This document shows, piece after piece, positions 38,083 through 55,926 of a stretch of DNA of 64,000 bases. Under the pieces are notes generated by a model, which searched no databases, was not told where the DNA came from, and saw only the letters and a list, made by a program, of their open reading frames with translations. The position numbers and the translations under genes are program-made. The number at the start of each line of letters is the position of its first letter. Within the stretch, counting starts at the first letter, position 1. Source of the stretch: a virus. The stretch lies in IMG/VR virus record IMGVR_UViG_3300046804_003518, positions 62,001 through 126,000 of that record, one strand, 5' to 3'.

Positions 38083-38400
38083 ATGGTCCACTACGAATAC
38101 GAAGCAAAGCATATGAGTTTCTATGAGATCAAAGAGGCGAATGGTTTTGTAAGTATGTGGTCAATCTATGATGGTGTCAATGACCCAAGTGAGCCATCAC
38201 CATACGAAGGCAAGACAATGTCCTATATGAACAATTGGGGCGAACCTGTAGAGGTGACGTTGCCTTCTGGTAAGTTGACATGGCTTCAGCTTTGGGCTGC
38301 TGCCGATAAGTGTATCAAACAGTCTGGCGATACACATCACATCTTCATCGAGGGGTTTAGGAAGAACGGTGGTATACTTGAATTGATTACAGGAAGTTGA
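38083..38400 (+). CDS. Unrecognised small protein
   Basis: 105 residues with a Trp/Tyr-rich mixed alpha/beta pattern (MWSIYDGVNDPSEPSPYEGK, GKLTWLQLWAAADKCIKQSG, HHIFIEGFRKNGGILELITG). No family recognised. The stop overlaps the ATG of the acyl-CoA-ligase-like gene (ATGA-type), so it is coupled to it and might work with it. Confidence 0.6.
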   Translation: MVHYEYEAKHMSFYEIKEANGFVSMWSIYDGVNDPSEPSPYEGKTMSYMNNWGEPVEVTLPSGKLTWLQLWAAADKCIKQSGDTHHIFIEGFRKNGGILELITGS

Positions 38401-39797
38401 TGAGTGTAACAGCATCGCTTAAAGCAACAGACGGAATCTTTTCATCCTCACAGCGGACGCCACACAAAGTGGCCATCCGTTGTGGGGATCGCTCCGTTTC
38501 CTATTCTGAACTGACCAATAAGGTCAGACAAATCCAGCACTATTGTGTACATAAGCTCAAACTCAAGCCAGGTGATAGAGTATCGCTACTTGGTAACAAT
38601 TCAATAGAATACCTTGAGATATTAATCGCTCTAATTGATATTGGTGTTGGTGTGGTGACAATTAACCCAAAGTCTTCTCAGGAAGAGATTGACAGGTTGA
38701 GAAATGATTTGGTCACTTCAGTAAATTTTATTCTACGCGCCCCCCATATACTTTTTACTGAGGCCGGGGCTTATGAATCTACAGTAGATCTTTCGGAGGA
38801 ACTTCTAACTGACGAAGTAACCTTTGATTGGAATCTACCATCCACAATTATATTCTCTTCTGGTACAACGGGTAGATCCAAACCAATATTCATATCACAT
38901 AAGACAAGAGTTATGACATCTCTTTCTATGCCTCTGAGTTGGCGTTGGCAGCAAAATGATATCTACCTATCACTACCTTCTCTCTCTACGGGTGGAGGTA
39001 GTGGTTGTGCTCTTGCTGCTCTCTATATTGGAATGGAAGTTGTGATTCCTGAACAATACACAACCGAGTATCTTGTTGATATCATCAATAAGCGAAAGGT
39101 TACTACAATGGTAACAGTACCAGCACTTACCTATAAACTTGTCAACCAAAGATACAATCATGCAATCAATTCAGTAATATCAACTGCTGATGTTTTCCCT
39201 TATCAACTAAAAGTAGATGCCTACAACTTATGGCCAATGGCATTATATGAAACATATGCAACAACTGAGCATGGTCCAATAACATTACTCACACCTGATG
39301 ACCTTTGTAATAAACCAAACTCTGTTGGTCGTCCTTGTATTGGTTCAATGGTTAAAATCGTAGACGAACAAGGAGCTGGAGTTCCAACTAACACTCCAGG
39401 TAACATTGTAGCAACAACTCTCACACAAACAGGTGAAGGGTGGTTACCAACCAACGACATCGGATATCTTGATAGCGACAACTACCTTTACATTTTAGGT
39501 AGAGCTAATAATATGATTGTTACAAGAGGGTTCAATATACATCCTCTTGAAATTGAAGAAGCAATTAATCAGTATCCAGGAGTTGTTGAATCATGTGTTG
39601 TTGGTAAACAAAATGCCAGGTGGGGCGAGATACCTGTTGCCTTCATTGTTGGAGATGTAGATACTAGTTCGTTAAAGGCCTATCTCAGAAATAGGCTAGC
39701 AAAATATAAAGTTCCTCGTACATTTATCGTAGTTGAATCAATACCTAAGAATATTTTAGGTAAAATTGAACGCAACAAATTACGCGAACTATTATAA
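38400..39797 (+). CDS. ANL-superfamily acyl/aryl-CoA or acyl-AMP ligase
   Basis: 465 residues from ATG 38400 (a TTG codon precedes it). AMP-binding core motifs: IIFSSGTTGRSKPIFIS (A3 P-loop, about 149-165), YETYATTEHGPIT (A5, about 281), DIGYLDSDNYLYILGRANN (A7 Asp, about 352-371), VTRGFNIHPLEIE (A8 hinge) and NILGKIERNKLREL with the A10 Lys (about 454). All catalytic elements look intact, though the N-terminus is shorter than usual (typical enzymes are 500-560). It activates a carboxylate as AMP ester; the acid is unknown. No acyl carrier protein is seen nearby. An unusual gene for a T4-like phage. Confidence 0.88.
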   Translation: MSVTASLKATDGIFSSSQRTPHKVAIRCGDRSVSYSELTNKVRQIQHYCVHKLKLKPGDRVSLLGNNSIEYLEILIALIDIGVGVVTINPKSSQEEIDRLRNDLVTSVNFILRAPHILFTEAGAYESTVDLSEELLTDEVTFDWNLPSTIIFSSGTTGRSKPIFISHKTRVMTSLSMPLSWRWQQNDIYLSLPSLSTGGGSGCALAALYIGMEVVIPEQYTTEYLVDIINKRKVTTMVTVPALTYKLVNQRYNHAINSVISTADVFPYQLKVDAYNLWPMALYETYATTEHGPITLLTPDDLCNKPNSVGRPCIGSMVKIVDEQGAGVPTNTPGNIVATTLTQTGEGWLPTNDIGYLDSDNYLYILGRANNMIVTRGFNIHPLEIEEAINQYPGVVESCVVGKQNARWGEIPVAFIVGDVDTSSLKAYLRNRLAKYKVPRTFIVVESIPKNILGKIERNKLRELL

Positions 39798-39862: not shown

Positions 39863-40348
39863 ATGACTAGACATACTCTAAGTCTATTCGATCAATTCGA
39901 TCGCGCGTGGCACAACCACTCAGTTGGCTTTGACAGAGCATTTGAAATTTTACAGCATGCTGCCAATGTCGCCAAGACCAACGACAACTTCCCACCCTAC
40001 TCTTTAGTTAAGAAGGACGACTTCAATTACGAATTGGAGATGGCTGTTGCCGGATTCAATGAAAAGGATTTGGAAATCGTTACTTCTAAAAACAGACTAT
40101 CTGTGGTTGGCATGAAGCCTGAGAAGGATGATCGTGAGTATATTGTGAAAGGAATTGCAGGACGCAGTTTCGCTCGTGAATTTGTTCTTGCTGATACTAT
40201 TGTTGTACGTGACGTGAACTTAATTGATGGTATTTTGACAATCAAGCTAGAAAATGTAGTACCTGAGGAGCAGAAGCCAAGGAAGATTACAATTGGTAAA
40301 AAGCCAATTGAGTCTAAGGCAGAACTACTTGTCGAAGAAGGCAAGTAA
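39863..40348 (+). CDS. Small heat-shock protein Hsp20
   Basis: 161 residues with an alpha-crystallin domain: YSLVKKDDFNYELEMAVAGF (about 44-63), EKDLEIVTSKNRLSVVG, and the C-terminal DGILTIKLENVVPE (about 130-143) leading to the RKITI motif. T4-like phages of aquatic hosts nearly always encode an Hsp20, thought to hold unfolded proteins during assembly. It has a perfect late promoter and is followed by a terminator, so it forms its own transcription unit. Confidence 0.95.
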   Translation: MTRHTLSLFDQFDRAWHNHSVGFDRAFEILQHAANVAKTNDNFPPYSLVKKDDFNYELEMAVAGFNEKDLEIVTSKNRLSVVGMKPEKDDREYIVKGIAGRSFAREFVLADTIVVRDVNLIDGILTIKLENVVPEEQKPRKITIGKKPIESKAELLVEEGK

Positions 40349-40355
40349 CTAATGG

Positions 40356-40380
40356 AAAGGGGGCTGCAATGGCCCCCTTT
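40356..40380 (+). terminator. Intrinsic terminator after hsp20
   Basis: AAAGGGGGC (40356-40364), seven-base loop, GCCCCCTTT (40372-40380), followed by CTTTATC. It isolates hsp20 from pstS. Confidence 0.88.
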
Positions 40381-40423
40381 CTTTATCAAATATTAAGATT
40401 TGATTAAGGCTTGACGTCTCAAT

Positions 40424-40431
40424 GTTAAATA
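40424..40431 (+). promoter_or_regulatory. Late promoter variant GTTAAATA before pstS
   Basis: Two mismatches from TATAAATA; the identical octamer stands before the plcP-like gene (42853). No convincing Pho box is seen in this 117-base gap; a TTGACG at 40411 lacks a -10 at the right spacing. Confidence 0.45.
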
Positions 40432-40465: not shown

Positions 40466-41509
40466 ATGAAATCTAAGTTAGCAATTCTTTTTGCTTTATC
40501 ACTACTTGTTGTATCTCATGTTGCCCATGCCCAGTCGCGTGATGCAATTTCAATTGTGGGATCTTCAACAGTATATCCATTCACAACAACTGTAGCAGAA
40601 CAGTTTGGTCGTCAGGGAAAGTTTAAGACACCAAAGGTGGAGTCAACAGGTACGGGTGGCGGCATTAAGCTATTCTGTAACGGTGTTGGTCCACAGTTTC
40701 CTGATATTGTTAATGCTTCTCGTAGGATGAAGGCAGCTGAATTTCAAACCTGTGTTCAGAATGGCGTAAAGGAAATTCTTGAAGTCAAGATTGGATTTGA
40801 TGGACTTACGATTTCTGAATCAAAGAAGGGTAAGCTTAACGCTTTAACTCGTAAGGATGTTTATCTTGCTCTTGCCAAGCAAGTTCCAAACCCTTCTAAT
40901 CCAACTGAGTTGATTGCTAACCCATATACAACATGGAAGGATGTTAACCCATCTCTACCAGCTGTCAAGATTGAAGTTCTTGGTCCACCACCAACAAGTG
41001 GTACGAGAGATTCATTTGCTGAGCTATTCATGGAAGCTGGTTGCCAACAATATCCATGGATTAAGTCTCTCAAGGATATTGATGAAAAAAGATATAAGAG
41101 AATTTGTCAAACACTTCGTGAAGATGGTGCATATGTTGAAGCTGGTGAGAATGACAACTTAATTGTACAAAAGATTCAATCAAATCCAAATGCTCTTGGT
41201 ATTTTTGGCTTCTCATTTCTTGAAGAAAATATGGATAAGTTAAAGGGTCTTGAGATAGATGGCGTTGCTCCAACGTTTGAAACTATCGCTTCTACTAAAT
41301 ACCCTACATCTCGTCCACTTTTCATTTATGTCAAGAAAGCGCACATTGGTACGATTCCTGGCCTAAAGGAGTTTGTGGTTGAGTACGTGAGCGAAAAGGC
41401 TACCGGTGAGGAAGGTTATCTAACTGACCGCGGCCTTGTTGCTCTTGATAAGTCAGCACTATCGAAAGTGCGTGCTGATGTTAATAATATGAAAAACTTC
41501 AAGCCATAA
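40466..41509 (+). CDS. pstS: Phosphate-binding protein PstS
   Basis: 347 residues. A Sec signal peptide is clear (LAILFALSLLVVSHVAHA, cleavage before QS), so the protein acts in the host periplasm and delivers phosphate to the host PstCAB transporter. IVGSSTVYPFTTTVAEQFG (about 29-47), VESTGTGGGIKLFCNGVG (about 58), PDIVNASRRM (about 79), PPTSGTRDSFAELF (about 173) are the phosphate-binding segments. No pstC/A/B is present. Ribosome site AGGAGAC. It is followed by a porin gene after 25 bases, a likely functional pair. Confidence 0.95.
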   Translation: MKSKLAILFALSLLVVSHVAHAQSRDAISIVGSSTVYPFTTTVAEQFGRQGKFKTPKVESTGTGGGIKLFCNGVGPQFPDIVNASRRMKAAEFQTCVQNGVKEILEVKIGFDGLTISESKKGKLNALTRKDVYLALAKQVPNPSNPTELIANPYTTWKDVNPSLPAVKIEVLGPPPTSGTRDSFAELFMEAGCQQYPWIKSLKDIDEKRYKRICQTLREDGAYVEAGENDNLIVQKIQSNPNALGIFGFSFLEENMDKLKGLEIDGVAPTFETIASTKYPTSRPLFIYVKKAHIGTIPGLKEFVVEYVSEKATGEEGYLTDRGLVALDKSALSKVRADVNNMKNFKP

Positions 41510-41534
41510 TTTCGTGGCGCAACAGGAGAAAGAA

Positions 41535-42713
41535 ATGCGTAAAGCAATTCAATCATTAGTTATTTTAGGATCATTGCTAGGTAGCGTTGCATACGGACAA
41601 AGTGCAGCTGATGTTCAAGCATCGGTTGATAATTTGTCAGATGTATTTGCTAAGGATGTAGCATCACGCTGGAAGTGGAAAGGTGACTTTCGTGTAAGAA
41701 ACGAAAACATCGATCAGGAACTTGCAGTTGAGCGCAACCGTACTAGAATGCGTGTTCGTCTTGGATTTGAAGCAGAAGTAAATCCAACTGTTAAGGCAGG
41801 CTTTCAGTTTGCTACAACAGAAAATGGAGATGCTCGTTCAACAAACCAGACCTTCAGTGATGTTAATTCTAAGAAAGCACTTGATCTTGATTTAGCATAT
41901 GTTGAGTGGGCACCAAACGCAACAACCAAGCTTACGCTTGGTAAGATGAAGCAACCTCTTGTCACAACGACATCTTACTTTGTCGATAAGGACATTAATC
42001 CAGAGGGTGCTACTCTTGCGTTTAATCACGCTCCAACTGGCGTATTTGTAAATGCTGCTTTGTTTGATCTAGTTGAGCGTAGCTCAGCTGGTGATTCAAC
42101 AGCACTAGCATGGCAAGTTGGCTTGCGTGGTAAATTGAATGATGACACAGGATATGTTCTAGCTGCTGGTGAAATGAATCACCACAATGTTCAGAACCTA
42201 GCTGTAATTCAATCAGGCGCTGCAGGTAGTTTCTTTGGTAACACAACTAAGACAACTGGTTGTGTAGCTGGAGTTACAACTTGTCTTGCAAATGAGTTTG
42301 AGGTCCGTAATGCTCTAGCTGAAGTAACAACAGTGGTCGCTGGCTATCCAGTAGTTGCTTTTGTTGATTGGGCAGAGAACACTAAGGCTGTAAAACTCAA
42401 CAAGGCTCTTGCATACGGAGTCACCCTTGGAAAAGCATCACTTCCAAATTCTTGGGAAGCTGGTGTTGTAATCCAAAGCGTTGAGAAGGACGCTCTATTT
42501 GGTCAGTGGATTGATTCTGACTATGCTGCTGGTAATACAGATGGTGATGGATATACACTTCGCGGTGCATATCAATTAGCCAAGAACTGGAAACTAAATG
42601 TTGCTTATCATATCAATAAGACAAACAATGATGTTCCAGTAGTTATTAGTGGACGTAATATTATTGATCGAGACTATAAGCGTCTACAACTTGACCTAAA
42701 CTATTCATTCTAA
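41535..42713 (+). CDS. Outer-membrane porin
   Basis: 392 residues from ATG 41535, which follows AGGAGAAAGAA; a GTG at 41514 is an unlikely start. Signal peptide IQSLVILGSLLGSVAYG with cleavage before QS. The mature protein alternates polar and apolar residues throughout, as in beta-barrels (WKWKGDFRVRNENID, TRMRVRLGFEAEVN, LDLAYVEWAPNATTKLTLGK), and ends in LQLDLNYSF with the terminal Phe of outer-membrane proteins. It resembles bacterial putative porins. Together with PstS it could improve phosphate uptake; alternatively it may alter receptor properties and block superinfection. Confidence 0.85.
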   Translation: MRKAIQSLVILGSLLGSVAYGQSAADVQASVDNLSDVFAKDVASRWKWKGDFRVRNENIDQELAVERNRTRMRVRLGFEAEVNPTVKAGFQFATTENGDARSTNQTFSDVNSKKALDLDLAYVEWAPNATTKLTLGKMKQPLVTTTSYFVDKDINPEGATLAFNHAPTGVFVNAALFDLVERSSAGDSTALAWQVGLRGKLNDDTGYVLAAGEMNHHNVQNLAVIQSGAAGSFFGNTTKTTGCVAGVTTCLANEFEVRNALAEVTTVVAGYPVVAFVDWAENTKAVKLNKALAYGVTLGKASLPNSWEAGVVIQSVEKDALFGQWIDSDYAAGNTDGDGYTLRGAYQLAKNWKLNVAYHINKTNNDVPVVISGRNIIDRDYKRLQLDLNYSF

Positions 42714-42740
42714 TTGAACAAATTAGATTGTGTTGACTTG

Positions 42741-42771
42741 AAAGGGGGAGCGTTGACTCCCCCTTTCTTTT
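42741..42771 (+). terminator. Intrinsic terminator after the porin gene
   Basis: AAAGGGGGAG (42741-42750), six-base loop, CTCCCCCTTT (42757-42766), then CTTTTT. Ends the pstS-porin unit. Confidence 0.92.
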
Positions 42772-42794
42772 TGTATATACTATCCCTCTTTGAG

Positions 42795-42820
42795 GAAGGG
42801 GACCTAGGTCCCCTTCTTTA
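42795..42820 (+). terminator. Second palindromic hairpin in tandem
   Basis: GAAGGGGACC (42795-42804) pairs with GGTCCCCTTC (42807-42816) around a TA centre, followed by TTTA. A very tight palindrome; a backup terminator or a protein-binding site. Confidence 0.7.
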
Positions 42821-42852
42821 TATTAATTTTTTATTAAAGTATCTGTTTCTGT

Positions 42853-42860
42853 GTTAAATA
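42853..42860 (+). promoter_or_regulatory. Late promoter variant GTTAAATA before the plcP-like gene
   Basis: Same octamer as before pstS, 22 bases before the ATG at 42882. A CAGGAGACC ribosome site follows. Confidence 0.5.
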
Positions 42861-42881
42861 ATAACATACACAGGAGACCAT

Positions 42882-43631
42882 ATGAAGTACAAATCTATCT
42901 TTATATCCGATGTACATTTAGGTTCTAAAGGATGTAAAGCTGATTTGCTTTGCGACTTTCTCAAGCACAATACTTGTGAGCAGCTGTATCTTGTCGGCGA
43001 CATCATTGATGGTTGGAGACTAAGTAGGAAGTTTTACTGGCCTCAGTCTCATACAAACGTAATTAGAAGAATCCTTACCGCGGCTAAACGAGATACAAAG
43101 GTAATCTATGTGGCTGGTAATCACGACGAGGCTCTTCGTGGTCTTCTGCCATATGATATTCACTTTGGCAATATAGATCTTGTTAACCAATGCCGCCACC
43201 AGGCAATCAATGGTAAGACCTATATGGTAATCCATGGTGATATGTTTGATACAGCTCTTCGGAACAAGTTGGCCTGGCTATATCATTTTGGTGACATACT
43301 ATATAATATTCTACTGAGCATAAACGTTGTTGTTGGTAAGGTAAGGCAACGCTTTGGTCTACCTTATTGGAGTCTAAGCGCTTATTTAAAAAATAAGACG
43401 AAAGAAGCTGTTGCCTATATGAGCGACTTTGAGGTTCTAATTACCGACTACTGCCACAAACAGAAAGCGCATGGAGTGATATGTGGCCATGTTCATAAGG
43501 CAGATATAAAGATGATTGGTGAGGTTGAATATATGAATGATGGTGACTGGGTAGAGAGCTGTACTGCCCTAGTTGAGAACTATGAGGGTAAATGGGAAAT
43601 ACTAACGTGGCAAGAATTAAAATCATCTTAA
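42882..43631 (+). CDS. PlcP-like metallophosphoesterase (phospholipid lipase C type)
   Basis: 249 residues of the calcineurin-like phosphoesterase family, related to UDP-2,3-diacylglucosamine hydrolase. Metal motifs: FISDVHLGSKGC (about 7), LVGDIIDGW (about 38), VAGNHDEALR (about 78), VIHGDMFDT (about 113) and CGHVHKADI (about 204). Marine and rhizobial PlcP enzymes of this family release diacylglycerol from phospholipids under phosphate starvation, and their genes lie beside a glycosyltransferase gene (agt) as here. An LpxH-type role is the alternative. Coupled to the next gene by a 40-base overlap. Confidence 0.8.
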   Translation: MKYKSIFISDVHLGSKGCKADLLCDFLKHNTCEQLYLVGDIIDGWRLSRKFYWPQSHTNVIRRILTAAKRDTKVIYVAGNHDEALRGLLPYDIHFGNIDLVNQCRHQAINGKTYMVIHGDMFDTALRNKLAWLYHFGDILYNILLSINVVVGKVRQRFGLPYWSLSAYLKNKTKEAVAYMSDFEVLITDYCHKQKAHGVICGHVHKADIKMIGEVEYMNDGDWVESCTALVENYEGKWEILTWQELKSS

Positions 43632-44635
43632 TCACCGACGCCTGGGAACCCCAGGTTAATGGTGTCGTGACAACATATAAAAATTTAATTAACTACCTAC
43701 CTGACAACGTCTCCGTAGACATAGTTCACCCAGCTTTGTTTGATTATTTTCCCTTCACACTATACAAAGGAATCAACATACCATTGTGTTCATTCAATAT
43801 GATGTATAACTTGATTGAAAGAAGAACAATGCACTACCAAATCCAAGGGTATAGTGTATCATACCATATAGCAACAGAAGGTGTTCTTGGCTATAAGGCC
43901 AAACGCGCTCTTGATGTAATGAAGAAACCATATACTACTGCCTACCACACAAAGTTTCCCGAGTTTCTGAAGTTAATGTTTGGTATTCCAGTTTTATTTA
44001 CATCGTGGTACTTCAACTGGTTCCATAAAAAGTCAAAGGCTGTCATGTGTTCCTCACAGTCTGATTCAATGACTCATTCAGATTGGCAGACAGTTGTTCT
44101 TGGTAAGGGTTATGCCAGCCATTTCTCGTTCAAGGACCATCGTCACAAACATGATATAAATTTACTATACGTTGGTAGAGTTAGTCACGAAAAGAATATA
44201 GAGGATTTTTGTAAACTTGACCTTGATGGTTGGACAGACTGTAACGCAAAGGTATATAAAATTATTGTTGGTGATGGTCCTGCAAGAAAATCATTAGAGA
44301 AAAAATATCCTGGAATTAGGTTTGTTGGATATAAATTTGGGAAAGACCTTGCTTCCTATTACCAGAATGCTGATGTATGTGTGTTCCCAAGCAAAGTTGA
44401 TACATTTGGAATCACGATACTTGAGTCAATGGCTTGTGGAACACCAGTTGCTGGTTATCCTGTGACCGGTCCAATTGACCAAATCATTAACGGTGTCAAT
44501 GGTTATGTTGATCAAGATCTTGAGTCGGCCGTTGGTCGCTGTCTACTTCTGGAACGAGATCTTGTAGCAAATTCAGTTAGGCATATATCGTGGAAGCAAT
44601 CAGCCCAACAGTTTGTTGACTTTATAGCTGGTTGA
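43592..44635 (+). CDS. GT4 glycosyltransferase, Agt-like
   Basis: 347 residues, GT-B fold. LITDAWEPQVNGVVTTYKNL (about 13-32) is the N-terminal signature, YHTKFPEFL (about 119) lies in the acceptor domain, LLYVGRVSHEKN (about 191) starts the C-terminal domain and FPSKVDTFGITILESMACGT (about 266-285) is the donor-binding motif. Bacterial homologs next to plcP glycosylate diacylglycerol to make glycolipids in place of phospholipids. Start ATG 43592 lies in the plcP-like gene behind GAGGG, so the two are translationally coupled. The substrate is inferred from context only. Confidence 0.82.
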   Translation: MGNTNVARIKIILITDAWEPQVNGVVTTYKNLINYLPDNVSVDIVHPALFDYFPFTLYKGINIPLCSFNMMYNLIERRTMHYQIQGYSVSYHIATEGVLGYKAKRALDVMKKPYTTAYHTKFPEFLKLMFGIPVLFTSWYFNWFHKKSKAVMCSSQSDSMTHSDWQTVVLGKGYASHFSFKDHRHKHDINLLYVGRVSHEKNIEDFCKLDLDGWTDCNAKVYKIIVGDGPARKSLEKKYPGIRFVGYKFGKDLASYYQNADVCVFPSKVDTFGITILESMACGTPVAGYPVTGPIDQIINGVNGYVDQDLESAVGRCLLLERDLVANSVRHISWKQSAQQFVDFIAG

Positions 44636-44660
44636 CTGTTACCATCGTTTAATGTATACT
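44632..44660 (+). promoter_or_regulatory. Sigma70-type promoter before the Tat-leader gene
   Basis: TTGACT (44632-44637), 17-base spacer, TATACT (44655-44660). The expected start near 44667 lies inside the following palindrome. It can also serve gp43. Confidence 0.82.
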
Positions 44661-44679
44661 CCCTCCTATCGTAGGAGGG
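44661..44679 (+). promoter_or_regulatory. Hairpin overlapping +1 and ribosome site
   Basis: CCCTCCTA (44661-44668), TCG loop, TAGGAGGG (44672-44679). The right arm contains the perfect AGGAGG ribosome site for ATG 44688. Read-through RNA would hide it, while RNA started at about 44667 would not carry the left arm. The same layout is seen at 18016 before uvsY. Confidence 0.72.
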
Positions 44680-44687
44680 ACGTTATC

Positions 44688-45023
44688 ATGTCAACAAGGC
44701 GTAATTTTTTTAAGTATCTTGGACTTGCTGGTGGTGTAGCAGTAGGTGGTCCTGTCGCCGCTGCAGCTATCATTCCTAAAGGTAAACCAAAGCACATTGA
44801 ACAACTTGATGGCGGATCGCACCTGCAATTGCGAGCAACATATGGCGAGAAGGTTGGCCTCGGCACAATAAACCCAACTAACAAACTAACGGTTTTTAGT
44901 CATCAGACGCAAGAGTTTGTTCCTGGAACTGTTGAGCAGGTTGATGTTTCGTTCAAGCCAGGTCCTGATGGTGAATTGTACTTGAAAGTTAATGGGAAAT
45001 GGCGTAAAGTAGTTACTGAATGA
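44688..45023 (+). CDS. Tat-signal exported protein of unknown function
   Basis: 111 residues from ATG 44688. The N-terminus STRRNFFKYLGLAGGVAVGG is a textbook twin-arginine leader followed by an Ala/Gly hydrophobic stretch (PVAAAAII). The mature part has a GTINPTNKLTV-like segment and a C-terminal DGELYLKVNGKWRKVVT pattern reminiscent of phage tail-fibre-associated beta motifs. Export of a folded phage protein to the periplasm is implied. No cofactor motif is visible. It overlaps gp43 by four bases, an odd partner for a replicative polymerase. Confidence 0.75.
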   Translation: MSTRRNFFKYLGLAGGVAVGGPVAAAAIIPKGKPKHIEQLDGGSHLQLRATYGEKVGLGTINPTNKLTVFSHQTQEFVPGTVEQVDVSFKPGPDGELYLKVNGKWRKVVTE

Positions 45024-55710: not shown

Positions 55711-55926
55711 ATGGAATACAAAGACTTAACTGAAGAAGAAATGGATAAATATGAGTCTGCGCTTGTTGCCATTGAGGATAAAATCCGTATAATACGCAGC
55801 CTAGGTCTCGAGAAGCAATTACTCAAGGACCTCAACCAAGATATCCCTCTTGAACTAAACATACTAATCGCTACTGCAGTGAGGATGAACATTGGACGAG
55901 AACAACTACGTAACTTCTACTGGTAA
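55711..55926 (+). CDS. Unrecognised 71-residue helical protein
   Basis: Helical throughout (LTEEEMDKYESALVAIEDKI, GLEKQLLKDLNQDIPLELNI). Ribosome site GGAGTACTAAG before ATG 55711. It overlaps the thyX start by 35 bases. No family recognised. Confidence 0.6.
   Translation: MEYKDLTEEEMDKYESALVAIEDKIRIIRSLGLEKQLLKDLNQDIPLELNILIATAVRMNIGREQLRNFYW

Follow-up and report, generated by a model that had tools for sequence, protein, structure and literature searches.

In several bacteria, phosphate starvation triggers a remodelling of the membrane, in which the metallophosphoesterase PlcP converts phospholipids to diacylglycerol and the glycosyltransferase Agt glycosylates it. Gene pairs of this kind have been described in SAR11 HTCC7211, in P. 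aeruginosa (PA3219-PA3218) and in Methylosinus (plcP-agt), and PlcP also in S. meliloti and Phaeobacter MED193. By established knowledge of the two families, such a pair would turn PE/PG into diacylglycerol and then into MGDG or GADG (PMC4796936, PMC8528852, PMC9239053). LpxH of the lipid A pathway shares the calcineurin-like fold and the metal ligands with PlcP, but has a GNRD motif and a different substrate. Among phages, the cultured pelagiphage Mosig EXVC030M carries a plcP, annotated as UDP-2,3-diacylglucosamine hydrolase, beside a divergent pstS. Cyanophages probably also carry phosphorus genes, pstS and phoA, under the control of host PhoB, which would serve to take up or release external phosphate, whereas the locus described here would draw on membrane phospholipid.

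Here we analyzed a DNA stretch of 64,000 nucleotides (the window), which comprises bases 62001-126000 of a 188,323-bp virus record. A preliminary description had proposed that two overlapping genes of the window form a phage-encoded PlcP-Agt pair, which would enable the virus to mine phosphorus from the host membrane. The two families, their order, the tight or overlapping arrangement and the phosphorus-linked context are shared with the bacterial pairs. In contrast to these, the genes are carried by a T4-type phage between hsp20/pstS and DNA polymerase, the encoded proteins fall into virus-only clades, and a promoter-like element is present instead of a classical Pho box.

Gene organization of the locus

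Both ORFs were found exactly where they had been described, each starting with ATG, and the locus has the following features:

40355..40381 (+), terminator-like hairpin between hsp20 and pstS, with a weak T tract
40392..40431 (+), composite promoter-like element upstream of pstS, ATTAA-N6-ATTAA-N16-GTTAAATA
40466..41509 (+), pstS, periplasmic phosphate-binding protein with signal peptide
41514..42713 (+), outer-membrane porin with signal peptide and C-terminal aromatic residue, probably co-transcribed with pstS
42740..42767 (+), strong intrinsic-terminator-like hairpin ending the pstS-porin unit
42791..42820 (+), second intrinsic-terminator-like hairpin just before the plcP element
42822..42860 (+), composite promoter-like element upstream of plcP, ATTAA-N6-ATTAA-N15-GTTAAATA
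42872..42877 (+), Shine-Dalgarno-like AGGAGA of plcP
42882..43631 (+), plcP, PlcP-type metallophosphoesterase (phospholipase C type), 249 aa, no signal peptide apparent
43592..44635 (+), agt, GT4 glycosyltransferase of the Agt family, 347 aa, overlapping plcP by 40 bases (43592-43631)

Pfam searches assigned Metallophos to the first ORF of the pair and Glycos_transf_1 / Glyco_trans_1_4 (GT4) to the second. PstS matched PBP_like_2 (PF12849, 2.5e-50) and also TIGR02136 (8e-47), the latter below its cut-off, and the porin matched Porin_5 and, weakly, Porin_O_P. The genes for sheath, portal, major head protein and UvsW were found upstream, and those for family-B DNA polymerase, UvsX and DnaB helicase downstream, while gp46-like and clamp loader genes also lie in the surroundings, so that this is phage DNA and not a host fragment. 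An acyl-CoA-ligase-like AMP-binding protein (38397-39797) and an IbpA-like Hsp20 (39863-40348) are encoded in front of the phosphorus genes, and the order ampL-hsp20-plcP-agt-DNA polymerase recurs in four other viral loci (L008, L010, L013 and L085; loci retrieved in this study are numbered with the prefix L). Directly after agt, a small ORF (44652-45023) has a twin-arginine-like start (STRRNFFKYLG); it is conserved in relatives and had no family match. In addition, the phage encodes, outside the window (virus record G000:C1:155321-155681; L260 10321-10681), a permuted tmRNA of betaproteobacterial type (Rfam beta_tmRNA, 121 bits against a cut-off of 84; tag ANDDVYNMALAA), and 6 of 26 other plcP phage records have one over the cut-off, too. 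Permuted tmRNAs of phages are known (PMC9004378); here it hints at a betaproteobacterial host.

Family assignment of the two enzymes

Next, we aimed to clarify whether the phosphoesterase belongs to PlcP or to LpxH, because in public phage records proteins of this kind are annotated as UDP-2,3-diacylglucosamine hydrolase or diphosphatase. However, the same annotation is given to the S. meliloti protein encoded next to sinR/sinI, which is probably the context of SMc00171, and PlcP function has been reported for S. meliloti (PMC8528852). The window protein is 45% identical to that protein and 50% identical to a PA3219-like protein that is paired with Agt1. The metal ligands D10, H12, D40, N80, H118, H203 and H205 are present and invariant in the alignment. 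The curated LpxH model (TIGR01854) yielded only 27 bits against a cut-off of 190, and 364 bits were obtained with an HMM of cellular PlcPs against 30 bits with an LpxH HMM. All 78 cellular PlcPs and 130 of 131 viral ones carry GNHD, while the other viral one carries GNHE and all six LpxH carry GNRD; the window protein has GNHD and GDWVE. In a careful tree, 24 viral representatives including the window protein formed one clade (bootstrap 99, SH-aLRT 97), and LpxH was set apart with 100/100 support. A sister relation of the viral proteins to SAR11, which had been seen in a quick tree (91), was not upheld in the careful tree (39/86). A few other viral PlcPs lie elsewhere in the tree, so there were probably several acquisitions. 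A sequence search of solved structures with PlcP gave no hit. The AF2 model had a mean pLDDT of 84, and its closest solved fold was LpxH, albeit at only 16-19% identity.

The glycosyltransferase was compared with SAR11 GTcp, an Agt shown to glycosylate diacylglycerol, for which 14 residues were shown by mutagenesis to matter (PMC8231724). To this end, the residues were mapped via a SAR11 homologue that has all 14 at the published positions. Twelve of them are identical in the window protein (G24, G97, G100, H119, R196, K201, D270, T271, F272, G273, E278 and W334). These include the His104-Asp256 dyad of GTcp (H119 and D270), in which Asp replaces the usual GT4 Glu, and the motifs GRVAXEKN and FPSXTDTFG are represented by GRVSHEKN and FPSKVDTFG. 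The two differing residues are both at the diacylglycerol site (T162 to G171 and R163 to K172); the PA3218-like Agt1 also has Lys, many viral members differ likewise, and W334 of this site is kept. In a quick tree, all 35 viral representatives formed one branch (96) within the Agt family (98), which contains cellular PlcP-linked Agts, and lay apart from E. coli WaaG, WaaB, WcaC, WcaI and WcaL. The predicted structure is confident (mean pLDDT 92) and resembles MshA (3c4q) and other GT4 enzymes.

Taken together, the PlcP and Agt identities are strong inferences from phylogeny, functional residues and gene pairing, in agreement with the preliminary description. PlcP does not branch with LpxH, and the glycosyltransferase does not branch with the LPS or colanic-acid GT4s that were included. 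Therefore, the alternative that the pair consists of an LpxH-type lipid A enzyme and a surface-polysaccharide transferase and modifies LPS, which is supported by the public annotation and by the closest solved fold, is very unlikely. It is equally unlikely that the glycosyltransferase acts on phage DNA, as T4 glucosyltransferases do, and the phosphoesterase on nucleotides, thereby protecting the genome. In favor of this latter possibility, the phage is of T4 type, the pair lies close to DNA polymerase, a thymidylate-synthase-family gene is present at 55892, and in some viruses plcP is followed by thyX or the gene for a ribonucleotide reductase small chain (L058 5689-6390, L284 1501-2565, L278 4952-6034), a possible link to DNA precursor supply. 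However, both proteins group with a cellular gene pair of lipid function, including W334 and the Asp in place of Glu, and plcP shares a regulatory element with pstS (see below).

Conservation of the gene pair in viruses

Hundreds of viral contigs carry plcP. To quantify the pairing, we retrieved viral loci solely by PlcP and analyzed 101 distinct loci with at least 1.2 kb downstream. Of these, 53 carry agt (42 within 150 bases), 26 carry a GT2 glycosyltransferase instead, 22 carry neither, and none carries both. The GT2 protein is a short enzyme without a close named relative (e.g. L295 4740-5450, L077 5864-6574 and L004 5897-6616), and its exclusivity suggests that it does the same job. Both genes of the pair are under purifying selection, with pN/pS values of 0.05-0.15 for plcP and 0.11-0.34 for agt. 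The overlapping pair is conserved in dozens of other viral contigs and thus far beyond chance. Six viral records with plcP, of 149 to 436 kb, also encode a T4-type major head protein.

In the open-access literature searched, which did not cover subscription papers and preprints, no report was found that joins plcP with phage auxiliary genes, and to this extent the statement of the preliminary description that phage-borne lipid remodelling is hardly described holds. However, viral lpxH genes are already listed in AMG tables, including Lake Baikal viral transcripts, and these may be plcP. The bacterial pathway is thus known, whereas the viral setting with its own regulation and an alternative partner enzyme differs from the described systems.

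A shared element and the link to phosphorus

In this phage, pstS-porin and plcP-agt are separate units, and each of them is preceded by a terminator-like hairpin and then by the same composite element, which consists of two ATTAA half-sites 11 bases apart, followed after 15-16 bases by GTTAAATA. The element occurs twice in the window against 0.01 expected, and nowhere else in the genome. It is conserved upstream of plcP in L008, L009, L013, L085, L037 and L053. A looser form had 7 distinct hits in 1.8 Mb of viral loci, all immediately before plcP (6) or pstS (1, in Mosig). Two strict versions were used to scan all IMG/VR viral contigs and gave 14 and 24 hits, of which 7 and 9, respectively, lie 21-61 bases before plcP (4) or pstS (12), while most others have no sizeable gene just downstream. 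It should be noted that the patterns were designed after the two copies in the window had been seen, and that many of the loci were retrieved with plcP, which favors plcP hits; the pstS hits in contigs retrieved by pattern alone are the independent part.

The spacing of the element, an 11-bp-period TTAA repeat, is that of a Pho box, but the sequence is not. No classical Pho box (CTGTCAT-N4-CTGTCAT) was found near pstS or plcP with up to 3 mismatches. SAR11 plcP and pstS show, by eye, TTTAACA-N4-TGTAACA-like repeats, but in the opposite orientation to the phage element, and simple pattern tests in SAR11 gave nothing clear. The element is also distinct from the T4-type late promoter motif TATAAATA, which is enriched in the window (10 against 4.25 expected) and lies on the + strand only, e.g. 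at 494, 5184, 13592, 39793 and 62079.

The most likely explanation, in which we have reasonable but not full confidence, is that the pair is a phage-borne PlcP-Agt lipid-remodelling operon. PlcP, a cytosolic Mn-type phospholipase C, would hydrolyse host glycerophospholipids to diacylglycerol plus a phosphorylated head group, and Agt would add a sugar from UDP-glucose (or UDP-glucuronate) to the diacylglycerol, so that the bilayer is kept with glycolipids. Together with pstS-porin, the operon would form a small viral phosphorus regulon that takes up external phosphate and draws on phosphorus of the host membrane to supply phage DNA synthesis in phosphorus-poor water. No enzyme assay exists for any phage copy; catalytic activity, direction of flux, benefit to the phage and phosphorus mining in infected cells are inferred, the last being plausible. 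By a rough estimate, a 188-kb genome holds about 377,000 phosphorus atoms and a small cell has some millions of phospholipids, such that the membrane could supply on the order of ten genomes. Because PlcP releases head-group phosphates, further host phosphatases would be needed. That aquatic T4-type phages carry their own phosphorus regulon, with one viral promoter element driving both phosphate uptake (pstS, porin) and the dismantling of host phospholipids into glycolipids (plcP with agt or the alternative GT2 partner), so that membrane phosphorus is drawn into phage DNA while the cell stays sealed, seems about as likely as not.

The phosphorus link is not universal. In a survey of 26 related viral records, many of which are fragments, pstS was found in only 3, and in some phages plcP sits beside unrelated genes such as a TonB receptor. 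It is possible, though rather unlikely, that the enzymes do convert phospholipid to glycolipid but that the benefit is an alteration of the membrane (charge, fluidity, lysis timing, superinfection exclusion or defence evasion) and not phosphorus supply. In P. aeruginosa, the glycolipids indeed protect against polymyxin B, a membrane effect (PMC8528852). Against this view, pstS-porin and plcP-agt share the element in this phage, and it recurs before pstS in other viral contigs. Furthermore, pstS and plcP are neighbors in several other viruses, including L037, L041, L072, L074, L319 and Mosig, and the plcP-pstS-porin order recurs in L037, L041, L043, L060 and L068. The Mosig protein belongs to the same viral PlcP clade (56% identity), and a related element is present upstream of its pstS. 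However, Mosig infects a different host (SAR11) and has no agt, as the gene after plcP is an unrelated ORF of 72 aa that showed no similarity to Agt.
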